A DNA stretch of 64,000 nt from Mytilus galloprovincialis (lineage: Eukaryota; Mollusca; Bivalvia; Mytilida; Mytilidae). Shown piece by piece: positions 45,901 through 51,900 of the stretch. Every line of letters starts with the position of its first letter. The stretch's first letter is position 1. Below the pieces are notes generated by a model. That model saw nothing but the letters and a program-made list of their open reading frames with translations, made no database searches and was not told the DNA's origin. The stretch covers positions 62,423,121 to 62,487,120 of the forward strand of contig NC_134846.1 in NCBI RefSeq assembly GCF_965363235.1, in the 5' to 3' direction. The translations under genes and the position numbers were made by a program.

Positions 45901-48900
45901 TTAATTATGTCTATGGGCTCATAACAAAATAATGTCAGCCAATCAGAAGACGTGTTACATCCAAAATTAAATTATTAGTTTATAATAGGGAAAATATCTA
46001 TCTTAATACAACTTTCATGGTTAAAATAAGAAATTACAGGATATTTGCTGCAAGAAAAAAAAATGATAGATCATATCAGTCAAAATTAAAAGAATACAAG
46101 ACCTGGAAGACCATCTTTCTTTCTCTGTTCACAAAGTCTTTCCATTGCTGAATTAGCAAATCCATAATTAGTCTGACCAACATTTCCTCGTCCAGATGTA
46201 ATGGAGGAGAAAACCACAAACCAGTCCAGACTGTCTTTACAACTATCCCTTGTCACTTTATCTAAATTCATTGTACCATGTACTTTAGGTTCACAAACTT
46301 TCTTAAAGTTTTCTGGTGTCTGGTTCTCAAACAATCCATCTTCTAATACCTGCAAATGAGATGAAAATTACATTGCATATACATGTCAAGTTTAAAACAA
46401 TAATAATTTATAGAGATTTCATGCATTAAATACAGAAAATAGTAAAATGTTTAAGACAAACCTTCTAGACTCAGTTTGTAGATTAAAAAGAATAAATATT
46501 TTAAAACATTTTTATAGACTGGATAATTAAGTGCTGAACATAGATACCTTTCTATTGTTAAAACAGTATGTTGCTGTCTAAATGTTTTTTTGTTATTGTT
46601 GTTGTTGGGTTTCAGTCTCATAAACTGATACCCCATTTCTTATTTTATTCATATAGACTGAATACTTCATTGGGTTTCAAATCTTCAGATTTTAGCTTTC
46701 CAGGGGAAGGTCAATCTAGAAAGAGCTTTTAGTACATCTAATCAATAAAGTGTTACTTTCATTTTGTAAATGAACCAGTATGTCGTAAGAAACTGTATGA
46801 AGTATCAAATTGTTGTCAACTACAAACTTTTTTTTACCATAGCTAAATTGAAAACTCCTCCTACAGGTCCTACTTTCTGAGTCTCCTCCATCAGTTTTCT
46901 ACATCCTTCCTCTGTTGTTACATTTCTAGACGACACCATTAAATTGATGTTCCTTTCTCTTAGAAGCCTGAGTTTTCTTTCCTGGTACCCAGTTGTTACA
47001 CCAGACCTTGATGTCAGAACCAGTTTTGTGGCTCCTTCATTTACAAGCCACTCCGCTAATTCTAGACCAAATCCACCAAGACCTCCTACTAAAATGTAGG
47101 ACTTGTCTGGTGAACAAAGCTTGGGTTCTGTTAATATCGTAATGTCTTCTGAGTTATCCTCTCTTATCTAAAATTGAAATCAATTGAAATCATCAGTTCA
47201 TTTTCAAATATTTTTGTGGATAAATAAAATAACTATCTTCCAAAATATGTTTATTAGACTGAGGATGGTTAAGAGCTGGAAATGCAGAAAAGACATCTGT
47301 CTTTTGTTAAAGAACGTTTTATGCTTTCTAGATGTCTTAGTTATTTTGTCAGCAAAAGTAAGTTTACTTCAAATTTTATAAATCTTTTCCCTATTGTGCA
47401 ATTATGATAGTGACTGCTGTATCTTAGGTAAACACCAATAACTTTTTACTGATATTTGTATGAACAAAGCAAACTAATATGTTTGTAGTACAACTATTAT
47501 CAGGGTTTGAAATTTTCTGCTTAAATGGAAACTGTTTTACTAAAACATTTCCAACAAAAAAATAAAGTACACAATGAAATTCTAGATTTTGTACAGTTTA
47601 GTTTGTTGATAGTTTATGTATTTCAATTTCAGTGTTTTACAACAGTAGTTTACAAGTTTTTACTGATGTAATAGAGAAAACTATTTCAGAGATATCTTAC
47701 CTGTATTAGTACAGATTTTAAATTATTTGGGTCCTGTATCTGTTGAAATGCTTTTTGGATCTCTGTGTGTTTATAATAACTGAAGTCCAGAGGATGTACA
47801 ACTTTGTCCTTTATGCCTTGACCAATCAGATCCTTAATACTTGTTAATTCTTCTGGCATAAAATGATCTGTCCTGATGTGGTAGTAAGTTATATTCTCGT
47901 GTAAAATATCTTTGTCTAAAATCAGGAAATATAAATCTTGAACTTTAATATTTGTATTAGATTTTTTGTATTGATATTTTTGAAAAGTATATGGTGTAGA
48001 GGTTTTTCAAGATAGTTTTAGGCAGCATATTTTTACCATCTTTAATCATAGTTCAACTAAAACACTTGAAGATATCAACATGAGTTCTGAGAAACCAGAC
48101 TGCACTTTCGCTGCACTGGATAAACATGTAGTAGTAAGAAAACATTGAAGTAAGTCATTTAATTTTTTCTCAAACCCCACATCTCTTTTTATTCATCGAA
48201 ATGCAAATTTACATGATTATAATATACAAGAGGAAACTAGCTTACCTATTAAACTATCACTAAAATCAGAACTCAAATCTAGGTATTTTCCTCCATCTTT
48301 TAAAGCACTTAAAACCAGTTGGTGTAAATTCCCTGATGTTGAAGTAAATACTGTATCTACTCCTATAAAGACAAGAAACTAAGCATTGGTAATCAACAAA
48401 TAAAAAAGATGCCTTATTTGTACATAAGACGCATGAAATATAAATCACAGTGACCTCCTTTCCTCCCCCACATTCTTTTTATAAAAATCCTTGAGGAATG
48501 AAGGTTTGATAGCTATATCAACACAATTTTCCATACAATTAATATTGCCAAGAGACATAATTCTTTTAAAAATTGTTGATGGGCAAGGCTTTTTTTTTTT
48601 TTAAAATTAATCAACACTGATGTTAGAACTTGTCTGATATATTGCTATTATTAACCTGTAATTAAAATTTGACAACAATCTGGCAACAACTGTACACATG
48701 AGAGCACGTACAAAGCAATTTTCTATATTATCTATATTTAAAGGTCTTAAATTATTGATCATCATTGATTTCAGAACTTGATGGGTTATCAATTTTTTTC
48801 TGATTTCACAAACCCAAATACAAAAATTATGTATTTATTTCAGTTATATGATGCATGATACCATACCAGTTGAAAAGAATGAACTAGAGAAGTTAAATAC

Positions 48901-51900
48901 TATAGCTATTTGAACAAATCATGATTTGGCATGAGATGACAATTGGTTCTGTTTAATATAAGACGATCACAATACCTTTTCCTTTTGTCTGCCTTAGAAT
49001 TTCTCCTTCAAACTGCTCACTCTTGTCTATAATGTGAATGTTCTGTAATGATGGGTATCTCAACTTCATGTAATGCTGACATTCTAGAGTACTAACTAGA
49101 GCAAATATCTGACATCCCATAAAGGCAGTTATAGAAACAGCAGCTTGGCCTAGTGATGAGGAAGCATTAGCAATCAGGATGCTGGATCCTTTACTGATGT
49201 CTCCCTTCGTGGTCAGAGCATAATAGGCCAGGCCAAATGCTGATGGTACTGTGGCTGCTTCACTTAGAGACCATTCTTCAGGAATATCAAAAAGACATTC
49301 CTTACTAACTACTGCATCTGTTGCCAATGCCTGGCAATGAAAAATAACATGGTCAGTTGTCTTGCTAGCAATAAAATAAAGGCATGGTGCAAAACAGAAG
49401 TAATCTAGGTTTACGTAGCTGGCCTGGTCTTCAAATTAGTTTGATAGACCTTATACAATGATTAAAACAAATATCTAAGTAATGTCACTTCAGTATGAAA
49501 AGAACCAATAATGCAAGTAAATTTGTATCTAAGAAATGAACTTGGACTTAAATATAATGAAATAAAGTGTGAAATAAGCCATAACAGTTGACATTATCAT
49601 AATAATAAAAAAAAAAACATCTGACAGATGGCACTTAAAGCAACAACTCAAATACATCAAAAATTAAACCCATTCAAAAAGTACAGTTTTAGTAGTAAAA
49701 ATAAATCTAAAGAGCCTGTGTTGCTCACCTTGGCGTATGTGCATATCATAAACGAAGGATACAGATGGATTCATGACAAAATTGTGTTTTGGTAATTGTG
49801 ATGTGTTAGTAGATCTTACTTGACTGAACATTCTTGCTGCTTACAATTATCACTATCTATAATGAACTTGGTCCAGTAGTTGAAATATTTTGTAAAAATT
49901 TATGAAAATTGTTAAAAATTAACTATAAAGGGCAATATCTCTTTAAGGGTCAATTGACCATTTTGATCATGCTGACTTATTTGTAGGTCTTACTTTGCTG
50001 TACATTATTGCTGTTAATATTATGTTGGTATTTAAGATAATAACCAAAAGCTGCAAAATTTACTTACAATTACCAATTCAGGGGCAGCAACCCAACAACG
50101 GGTTGCCTGATATGTCTACAATTTTCAGAGCAGATAGATGTTGACTTGATAAACAATTTTACCTCTTGTTAGATTTGCTCTAAATGCTTTGGTTTCAGAG
50201 ATATAAGCCAAAATCTATAGTTTACCCATATGTTCTATTTTTAGCCATGGCAGCCATTTTGGTTGGTTAGCTGGATCACCAGACACATTTTTAAAACTAG
50301 ATACCCCAATGATGATTGTGGCAAAGTTTGGTTAAATTTGGCCAAGTAGTTTCAGAGAAGAAGATTTTTGAAAAAGATCACAAAAATTTAAGAAAAATTG
50401 GTAAAATTGACTATAAAGGGCAATAACTCCTGAAGGGGTCAACTGACAATTTTGGTCATTTGTTTTATTTGTTGATATTACTTTGCTGAACATTATTGCT
50501 GTTTACAGTTTATCTCTATCTATAATATTATTCAAGATAATAACCAAATAAAACGGGAAAATTTTCCTTAAATTTACCAATTATGGGGTAGCAACCCAAC
50601 AACCTTTGTCTGATTCATCTGAAAATCTCAGGGCAGATAGATTTAGACTTGATAAACAATTGTAATCCCTGTCAGATTTGCTCTAAATGCTTTGGTTTCA
50701 GAGTTATAAGCCAAAATCTATATTTTACCCCTATGTTCTATTTTTAGCCATGGTGGCAATCTTGATTGGCTAGTCAGGTCAAAGGACACATTTTTTCAAA
50801 CTACATACCCTAATGATGATTGTGTAAAAGTTTGATTAAATTTGCCTTAGTAGTTTCAGGAGAAGATTTTTGTAAAAGATTACAAAAATTTACGAAAAAT
50901 TGACTATAAAGGGCAATAACTCCTTAAGGGGTCAATTGACCATTTTGATCATGTTGACTTATTTGTTGATCTTACTTTGCTGAACATCATTACTGTTCAC
51001 AACTTACCTCTATCTATACTAATATTCAAGATATAAATAACAAAAGAACTGCAAAATGTCCTTAAAATTACCAATTCAGGGGCAGCAACCCAACAATGGG
51101 TTCCCCGATTCATCTGAAAATTTTAGAGCAGATAGATCTTGACCTGATAAACAATTTTATCCCGTCAGATTTGCTCTTAATGCTTTGGTTTCAGAGATAT
51201 AAGCCAAAATCTACATTTTACCCTATGTTCTATTTTTAGTCATGGCGGCCATCTTGGTTGGTTTGCCAGGTCACCTGACACATTTTGTAAACTAGATACC
51301 ATAATGATGATTGTGGCCAAGTTTGGTTTGGTTTAATTTGGCTCAGTAGTTTCAGGAAAAGATTTTTGTAAAAGTTAACAACTACGGACGCAAAGTGATG
51401 AGAAAAGCTCACTTAGCCCTTTGGGCCAGGTGAGCTTAAAAGATATGGTATGACTGCCAATGAGACTCTCCACAAGATACTAAATGACACAGAAATTAGT
51501 AAATATAGACCATACGGGCCATATTCAAATATATATGTTAATTTTAGTAACTATATCAATGTGTTGCTGTCTTGCAAAAATTTACTCCTTATCTTATTTC
51601 ATTTTCGTACAAGTTATAACTATACCTGTTCATCGATGACTCCCATGACTCTCCTTCCCTTGTCTGTTACTCCTGAAAACTCTGTCCCTAAATGAAACTT
51701 CTGATCAGCAGGGATTCTGCCCATGGCAAACATCAGATCCTTGATACCAAGTGACACATAGTGCATCTTACAGACAACATCAGACTTTTGTGAACACACT
51801 TGTTTTATCTGATCCCTCCAATATAGACTGGACAAATCTCCCTTTCTAGCTATATCTATGAAGCCATGCGACTTCTTTTCAAGTATCTGTGCTACAATTA

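Follow-up and report, generated by a model that had tools for sequence, protein, structure and literature searches.

Among the closest known systems are animal FAS-like polyketide synthases (AFPKs) of molluscs. Those of mo-clades 1-3 have no thioesterase (TE) and have been found only in heterobranch gastropods, and those of mo-clade 4, reported from all molluscan classes surveyed, have KS, AT, and TE as their only predictable domains (PMC10764717). EcPKS1 and EcPKS2, the sacoglossan AFPKs of mo-clade 1 (PDB 9cq1 and 9cti), are described as having no TE in the available excerpt of PMC7280274. Outside the animals, a KS0 domain with a Cys-Asn-His set works as a transacylase, according to an excerpt of PMC8456789, and an excerpt of PMC7619045 reports that a nonelongating KS was shown to transfer substrate. 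Among the matches listed in the open-licence literature, none described a paralogue of animal FAS comparable to the gene considered here. That gene is an old FASN paralogue with a single copy and an open frame, and, judging from its motifs, there is about an even chance that it processes chains and does not elongate them.

Gene structure and related loci

The gene occupies positions 40606-82890 on the minus strand, numbered from the start of the window (the whole 64,000-nucleotide stretch of Mytilus galloprovincialis DNA that was analysed), and comprises 27 exons and 2446 codons. In the spliced model, all 26 introns run GT..AG, the only stop codon is at the end, and positions 47701 and 51891 are the exact outer bases of four minus-strand ER exons. 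The domain order, KS-AT-DH-psiMT-ER-KR-ACP-TE, is that of FASN, and the KR, DH, AT, and ACP exons matched Pfam models above the cut-off. The exons are as follows.

40606..40716, minus strand: last exon, TE C-terminus and stop codon; GDHETF replaced by GIQDETF, catalytic His lost (hand-placed)
41295..41510, minus strand: TE exon (splice sites hand-placed)
42049..42297, minus strand: TE exon, nucleophile GYSIGG kept, LLDGS replaced by LIESP (PF00975; 3' edge hand-placed)
42879..42997, minus strand: TE N-terminal exon (spliced model)
44534..44857, minus strand: ACP exon with LGLDSLM unchanged, plus ACP-TE linker (PF00550)
45130..45378, minus strand: KR C-terminal exon (spliced model)
46103..46349, minus strand: KR exon, active site FSS...NYGFAN kept (Pfam match, alignment)
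46838..47167, minus strand: KR exon, NADPH motif GGLGGFG kept (Pfam match, spliced model)
47701..47915, minus strand: ER exon 4, C-terminal part (model and alignment)
48246..48362, minus strand: ER exon 3, VLNSL replaced by VFTST (model and alignment)
48976..49330, minus strand: ER exon 2, SGSGGVG replaced by NASSSLG, Lys segment lost (model and alignment)
51626..51891, minus strand: ER exon 1, LNFRDVMLATG segment altered, next loop shorter (model and alignment)
54482..54606, minus strand: psiMT/ER linker exon (spliced model)
54899..56044, minus strand: pseudo-methyltransferase exon (5' boundary uncertain)
57113..57290, minus strand: DH exon, FLDTMMQ kept (model and alignment)
58248..58511, minus strand: DH exon (spliced model)
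60030..60412, minus strand: DH exon, 10-residue motif kept (PF21089, alignment)
60846..61147, minus strand: AT exon (PF00698)
61477..61706, minus strand: AT exon, AFHS kept (Pfam match, alignment)
62669..62858, minus strand: AT exon, GHSVGE and WRG kept (model and alignment)
past 64000, to 82890 (genome C9:62506010), minus strand: seven further exons with the remaining AT, linker, and KS (spliced model)

A search with an ER exon of the gene returned the gene itself (100%) and three other loci, B, C1, and C2 (40-43%), and found no second genomic copy. Locus B, modelled at C9:34638569-34661910, has all FASN motifs and an intact ER; C1 and C2, a tandem pair at C1:68.5M, also have an intact ER, and no TE was found for either. 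The modelled C1 contains a stop at one modelled junction, the probable source of an index shift for which codon-position counts in pairs with C1 were set aside downstream of DH. The sequence-only reading had proposed seeking a second, ER-intact FASN in the same genome, and ER-intact FASN-type genes are present as B and C1/C2. With a guide that carried no intron information, 24 aligner-placed introns were kept, of which 23 match locus B in position and phase. A further locus, D (approximately C6:3009621-3056799), keeps its KS and TE motifs and has lost the AT nucleophile (GHSVGE replaced by GIGLSE), and family searches gave no KR, ACP, or AT match there.

Domain motifs and constraint

The sequence-only reading had taken the gene for a candidate AFPK with a degenerate ER and with all visible catalytic residues kept in AT, DH, KR, and ACP. 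Alignment with B, C1, C2, and pig and human FASN bore out both observations. In the ER, the NADPH-glycine segment, [VL]LIHSGSGGVGQAA in those five sequences, is an altered 14-residue stretch here; the Lys segment, VGS[AE][ED]K[KR] in the five, reads VSTLECQ; and the LNSL segment, [VI]LNSL[AS]EE in the five, reads VFTSTSGN. Of 164 ER columns invariant in the same five rows, the gene keeps 69, with 89 changed and 6 gaps, and EcPKS1 and EcPKS2, which show changes in these three motifs as well, keep 93 and 89, respectively. Judged by these residues, the ER is dead. Three ER frames of the gene had no Pfam match, which is not evidence, there being no intact ER exon as a control.

The AT motifs (GHSVGE, WRG, and AFHS), the KR motifs (NYGFAN and PKVHG), the ACP motif (LGLDSLM), and both DH motifs are kept. 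The TE matched PF00975 above the cut-off and retains its nucleophile Ser; its catalytic His is lost, a change that the sequence-only reading did not mention. Catalytic residues are lost in KS, ER, and TE, and the gene does not have the full motif set of a FASN. The best solved-chain match of the psiMT was EcPKS1, at 115 bits, with the best FAS at 89. Locus B, however, has a psiMT that was likewise nearer to EcPKS1 (103.5 versus 96.6 bits), and the resemblance, which reflects molluscan kinship at most, was dropped as a signal of AFPK identity. An IMG/VR scan with the psiMT frame gave no confirmed relative, and in GTDB the frame of the first KR exon hit one bacterial locus at 35%.

The KS lies beyond position 64000, outside the view of the sequence-only reading. 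Its first catalytic His is lost together with the residues after it (EAHGTGT replaced by ETASSCT), and its nucleophile loop is altered (DTACSS replaced by RNGCGSG), with the active Cys and the second His kept. A retained Cys with a lost first His is the pattern of KS0 domains and not the Cys-His-His set of a condensing KS, which EcPKS1 and EcPKS2 keep. The loop RNGCGSG had no match among the nine other KS rows compared, and transacylation may therefore be lost too. An NCBIfam scan identified the domain simply as KS. To look for a hidden intact KS exon, the locus was searched for motifs in all six frames (open stretches of about 44 codons or longer), which yielded no HGTG and one Cys-type motif. 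Extra copies of the edges of exons 2 and 4 do not rescue the KS either, since these are partial (88 and 85 nt) and, not being multiples of three, would shift the frame.

Nine other rows share 46 invariant KS columns, of which 9 are changed in the gene, six of these at or adjoining the Cys and His motifs, and B, C1, human, and pig have 0 of 37 such columns changed. The two distant PKS rows have no fewer changes than the gene (10/47 and 11/48), so it is the location at the active site, not the count itself, that is special. When columns invariant among FAS/AFPK rows were considered, 28 of 126 were changed in the KS (1 gap, 97 kept) versus 5 of 78 in KR plus ACP (Fisher p 0.003); the corresponding figures for EcPKS1 were 12/109 and 7/80 (p 0.81). 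EcPKS2 has 19 of 92 KR-plus-ACP columns changed although it is an active enzyme, and such counts therefore do not measure activity. These leave-one-out counts were made without C2 and mouse in the KS sets, without D and the two PKSs in the second KS set, and without C2 and the four PKS rows in the KR set.

The loss of catalytic residues in KS, ER, and TE, a KS conserved outside its active site in 97 of 126 columns, and rates above those of B in all domains would suit a structural or regulatory pseudoenzyme that modulates or inhibits the housekeeping FASN by forming dimers with it, its KR, DH, and AT motifs being slow-decaying remnants. We regard this as doubtful, since constraint is uneven between KS and KR plus ACP, and the AT, DH, KR, and ACP motifs are complete and would be unneeded by a scaffold.

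Placement in the FAS/AFPK clade and age of the decay

In the KS tree, a FAS/AFPK clade including the gene was split from the KS rows of two PKSs in this genome (99/99), and in the KR-ACP tree, the gene was split from four PKS rows (100/100). These trees place the KS within the animal FAS/AFPK clade and outside the canonical PKSs. Neither the KS-only nor the KR-ACP-only tree fixed the position of the gene within that clade. The concatenated KS and KR-ACP tree, which included two characterised AFPK sequences and corresponds to the phylogeny proposed in the sequence-only reading, joined the gene with B, C1, and C2 at a weak 88/87, and grouping with EcPKS1/2 was not rejected by the AU test (p-AU 0.14 for KR-ACP and 0.12 for the concatenation). 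The concatenated tree suggests, though not decisively, that the gene groups with the FASN-type genes of its genome.

These results bear on the AFPK assignment, by which a single protein would condense, ketoreduce, dehydrate, and release a polyene. The ER altered as in EcPKS1/2, the frame kept open, the ER-intact FASN-type genes elsewhere in the genome, and the unrejected grouping with EcPKS1/2 are all consistent with it. EcPKS1/2, however, keep the first KS His, the residues that follow, and the DTACSS loop, all of which are lost here; a TE region is present; and the non-heterobranch molluscan AFPKs, those of mo-clade 4, show KS-AT-TE only (PMC10764717). The KS also scored 381-397 bits against mammalian FAS, above its scores for EcPKS2 (334) and EcPKS1 (313), a weak discriminator because PKS chain 7zma, at 324, falls between the latter two. 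Once the KS motifs were read, ER loss was insufficient for the assignment, which is improbable. Nor does a polyene product follow from KR and DH acting without ER, as had been predicted, since a KS without its first catalytic His would make no chain alone; an AFPK building polyenes by itself is unlikely on these motifs. When domains of an animal FAS paralogue have decayed, it is readily misread as a polyketide synthase if the ER is the only part considered. The present gene, which has lost the first catalytic His of its KS with constraint persisting in other domains, shows the need to inspect the KS as well.

Identity to B was 64% for AT, 59% for KR, 36% for ER, and 24% for TE, and the ratio of the end branch of the gene to that of B was 10.2 for ER, 6.7 for KS, 4.5 for DH, 3.4 for AT, and 2.7 for KR, all domains being faster. 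The ACP end branch was also long but, at 68 columns, is unreliable.

The edge of the exon carrying the KS Cys is present in three tandem copies (85 nt), each of which reads NG[C/N]GS, so the KS decay most likely preceded the triplication. The two intronic copies of this edge differ at 16 of 85 sites (JC 0.217), and intronic edge copies as a whole gave JC values of 0.165-0.217, or about 0.08-0.11 per lineage, an estimate that rests on copies of 85-88 nt and that conversion between copies could blur. Under simulated neutral decay to a divergence of 0.05, none of 300 copies was stop-free. The sequence-only reading had seen no stop or frameshift in the exons and took the gene as apparently selected in that state; the frame stays open over the full 2446 codons. 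A recently silenced pseudogene, open by chance, would account for the catalytic residues lost in three domains and for acceleration over the whole gene; it is very unlikely given the stop-free frame, the 26 canonical introns, a KS decay older than the triplication, and the simulations. Read from these copies, the KS decay is old and the reading frame has been maintained since.

Proposed function and comparison with known synthases

The motif losses suggest that the gene product would carry out no elongation, enoyl reduction, or product hydrolysis, and the AT, DH, KR, and ACP motifs suggest that acyl loading of the ACP, ketoreduction, and dehydration would still be possible. The product alone probably cannot build a polyketide, and it is more likely that the protein processes chains rather than building them, most likely as a processing subunit. 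A beta-ketoacyl chain could be taken onto the KS cysteine by transacylation, as in KS0 domains, or be supplied, within a mixed dimer, by the KS of another synthase acting as partner; the resulting hydroxy or enoyl chain would then be extended or released by the partner, with the KS fold retained as a scaffold and dimer interface. If a partner subunit is used, FAS-type synthases of split or mixed-dimer form would exist in animals.

A more specific proposal, which we consider improbable, is that the gene and locus D jointly make up a split animal synthase, with D as the condensing half (KS and TE) and the gene as the modifying half (AT, DH, KR, and ACP). Between them, each of these activities would be present once, with no ER, and a mixed dimer would yield unsaturated chains. 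If this were true, the puzzling KS-AT-TE enzymes of mo-clade 4 would gain a candidate partner, and their absence of a carrier protein would be explained.

As a proposed chain-processing paralogue of FASN, the gene can be set beside four known systems. It shares with animal FASN (locus B) the domain order and the residue and phase of 23 of 24 compared introns, and differs in having lost catalytic residues of the KS, ER, and TE. It resembles EcPKS1 and EcPKS2 in the three altered ER motifs and in KR and ACP regions that align, and the AT motif is GHSMGE in EcPKS1, GHSLGE in EcPKS2, and GHSVGE here; it differs from both in its lost KS His, where theirs is Cys-His-His, and in having a TE region, which is absent from theirs as described in the excerpt of PMC7280274, so that it also departs from mo-clades 1-3. 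The KS0 domains of bacterial trans-AT PKSs, as described in the excerpts cited above, likewise keep the active Cys and have the first catalytic His replaced; the KS of the gene, unlike these, is of the animal FAS/AFPK clade, and transacylation by it is only putative. With the mo-clade 4 AFPKs it has in common a FAS-like KS and a TE, to which it adds DH, KR, and ACP, and its KS and TE catalytic sets are incomplete. It is locus D that resembles mo-clade 4, and the gene is nearly the mirror image of D.

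Gene model and FAS-like relatives

In the 1.38-Gb assembly, the FAS-like gene of the window was modelled with a purpose-written protein-to-genome spliced aligner from the window and 29 kb past its end; three paralogous regions were also taken. The resulting minus-strand model contained 27 exons and 2446 codons plus a stop, ran from 82890 to 40606 in window numbering, and had GT..AG at every intron; nearly half of its span and about a quarter of its codons lay past position 64000. The final two introns were set manually, as were the final exons; one aligner intron within the open pseudo-methyltransferase (psiMT) frame was taken out, and the psiMT exon has an uncertain 5' boundary. 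Among the 24 kept aligner-placed introns, 23 matched locus B, a FASN-type relative, in both residue and phase. The loci and open frames considered were as follows.

Loci in the genome (contig:position) and other open frames in the window (window numbering)
C9:62506010-62463726, minus strand: window gene
C9:34638569-34661910 (as modelled): locus B
C1:68472884-68512348 (L016-L027, with locus C2): locus C1, FASN-like, KS and ER intact; motifs present in KS, AT, DH, ER, KR and ACP
C1:68548728-68579532 (L016-L027, with locus C1): locus C2, FASN-like, KS and ER intact; motifs present in KS, AT, DH, ER, KR and ACP
About C6:3009621-3056799 (L028-L031, L037-L039): locus D, KS and TE of FAS-like type, both with intact catalytic motifs
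C13:22.46M, C1:60.45M, C9:2.67M, 2.72M and 2.80M, C9:11.14M and 11.37M, C6:97.75M: eight PKS loci, from KS and KR searches
C6:71.04-71.05M: two long PKS frames, uninterrupted over 2095 and 3166 codons, from the KS search
25678-26010 and 34517-34828, plus strand: open frames that we take to resemble a PICK1-like gene in its PDZ domain and acidic C-terminus
10953-11604, minus strand: two open frames, presumably resembling cyclin-dependent kinase exons

The sequence-only reading had suggested looking for an ER-intact FASN elsewhere in the genome, and one is present: locus B, with all FASN motifs intact (KS, AT, DH, ER, KR, ACP, and TE). Loci C1 and C2 form a tandem pair with KS domains 98% identical; a single stop falls at a modelled junction of C1, and the first KS exon is missing from the C2 model. 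A whole-genome TE family search gave three places, B, D, and the window gene, and a TE-guided scan downstream of C1 (36 kb) and C2 (9.5 kb) found nothing convincing; with no TE found, the layout of the pair appears to be TE-less and ER-intact. At the eight PKS loci, the KR lay within one open frame of 1096-2358 codons, and the KS matches were in pieces. Locus D and the abundance of PKSs are consistent with a molluscan source; that it is a bivalve is the view of the sequence-only reading.

Decayed and retained domains

The ER decay read from the sequence alone was borne out, and the boundaries given for the four ER exons were exact. Compared with B, C1, C2, and the FASN of pig and human, the ER had lost its glycine motif, its Lys segment, and LNSL. 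Of 164 ER columns invariant in those five sequences, the window gene retained 69, and EcPKS1 and EcPKS2, characterised sacoglossan animal FAS-like PKSs (AFPKs), retained 93 and 89, respectively; its ER is thus more diverged than those of known ER-dead AFPKs.

The KS, which lies past 64000 and was outside the view of that reading, had RNGCGSG for DTACSS and ETASSCT for EAHGTGT and retained KSNIGH, so that the catalytic Cys and second His were present and the first His was replaced by Ala. In the TE, GYSIGG was retained, LLDGS had become LIESP, and the His of GDHETF was lost. The catalytic roles of these KS and TE residues are established for FAS. Over nine comparison rows (B, C1, human, pig, EcPKS1, EcPKS2, locus D, and two PKSs of the genome, with C2 and mouse excluded), 46 KS columns were invariant; the window gene differed at 9, six of them at or adjoining the Cys and His motifs. 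When rows were left out in turn, the changes were 0/37 for each of B, C1, human, and pig, 3/40 for EcPKS1, 2/39 for EcPKS2, 6/43 for D, and 10/47 and 11/48 for the two distant PKSs. Judged by these counts, the number of changes is not unusual for a distant row; what is unusual is that they include the catalytic His, which nine of the nine other rows retain.

The remaining catalytic motifs were retained in AT (GHSVGE, WRG, and AFHS), DH (FLDTMMQ), KR (the glycine motif and NYGFAN), and ACP (LGLDSLM), and single exons matched PF00698, PF21089, PF08659, PF00550, and PF00975 above cut-offs. The window gene was faster than B in all domains, with end-branch ratios of 10.2 for ER, 6.7 for KS, 4.7 for psiMT, 4.5 for DH, 3.4 for AT, and 2.7 for KR; the ACP, with 68 columns and a B branch near zero, was given no ratio. 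Constraint was uneven across its domains: among columns of the FAS/AFPK rows, the window gene changed 28/126 in KS (1 gap) versus 5/78 in KR plus ACP (Fisher p 0.003). EcPKS1 showed no such contrast (12/109 versus 7/80; p 0.81), and by raw count EcPKS2 ran in the opposite direction (12/109 versus 19/92).

Phylogenetic placement and age of the KS decay

In the KS tree, resolution was poor; the window gene sat alongside B, C1, C2, and EcPKS1/2 and had an end branch of 0.86 versus 0.074 for B. The place of the window gene among the FAS rows of the KR-ACP tree was unresolved (p-AU 0.14 with EcPKS1/2 and 0.47 with B, C1, and C2). Concatenation of KS and KR-ACP grouped it with B, C1, and C2 (support 88/87), with a p-AU of 0.088 for a position outside the B, C, and EcPKS group. 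The AFPK assignment proposed earlier is not favoured by the best concatenated tree, and at a p-AU of 0.12 the placement with EcPKS1/2 is not rejected either. From these sequence comparisons, the gene is regarded, without certainty, as a FASN paralogue. Its single parts are already known; the combination of decayed KS, ER, and TE with retained AT, DH, KR, and ACP in a FASN paralogue appears to be new, no report of it being found in the open-licence literature among the matches listed.

Two separate tandem triplications past the window end bear on the age of the decay: one of 85-nt units covering the start of the Cys exon (77006-77260 in window numbering; L010:4006-4260), and one of 88-nt units covering the end of KS exon 2 (80297-80560; L010:7297-7560), neither unit being divisible by three. 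The three 85-nt copies translate to GPSYGLRNGCGSG, GPSYGLPNGNGSV, and GPTYGLPNGNGSG, readings which by parsimony indicate that the ancestor copy already lacked DTACSS. The intronic copies differ at 16/85 sites (JC 0.217) and 13/88 sites (0.165), and the exons differ from their nearest copies at 11/85 and 9/88. When neutral substitution of the coding sequence was simulated (n=300; substitutions only, with indels and splice sites left out), 5% of runs were stop-free at a divergence of 0.01, 0.7% at 0.02, and 0/300 at 0.05. The earlier view of an open, maintained frame thus holds, with no stop before the end of the 2446 codons, and the ancestral KS decay, copy divergence, and simulation together indicate maintenance since after the KS decay, an age to be read with the copies being short and conversion between them possible.

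Putative role and partner

Condensation would not be expected of an animal FAS KS that lacks the first His. The KS of the window gene, its Cys being retained, may still pass acyl groups, as non-elongating KS0 domains with Cys-Asn-His do according to PMC8456789 and PMC7619045. The most likely role of the gene, as predicted from its motifs, would be the processing of a chain built by a partner, with loading, ketoreduction, and dehydration on its own ACP; the main rival is a purely structural role.

For chain processing, locus D is a possible partner, and the window gene holds a set complementary to it; B is equally possible. Locus D carries KS motifs DTACSS, ELHSTGT, and KANMGH and TE motifs GYSFGS, LFDGG, and GSHETF. 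In weak alignments, its AT nucleophile was lost, a DH Asp was replaced by Asn, and the AT- and DH-like stretches were degenerate. Whole-genome family searches found no KR, ACP, or AT at D, and the same searches found all three in the window gene, B, C1, and C2. A B-guided scan of D scored, versus reversed sequence, 82 versus 76 for KR, 50 versus 43 for ACP, 124 versus 96 for ER, 105 versus 71 for DH, 142 versus 94 for AT, and 230 versus 71 for TE. The D models contain stops in places, at exon edges or elsewhere, so D itself might be broken. According to PMC10764717, the molluscan AFPKs of mo-clade 4 have a KS-AT-TE layout, which locus D, on its provisional gene model, resembles.
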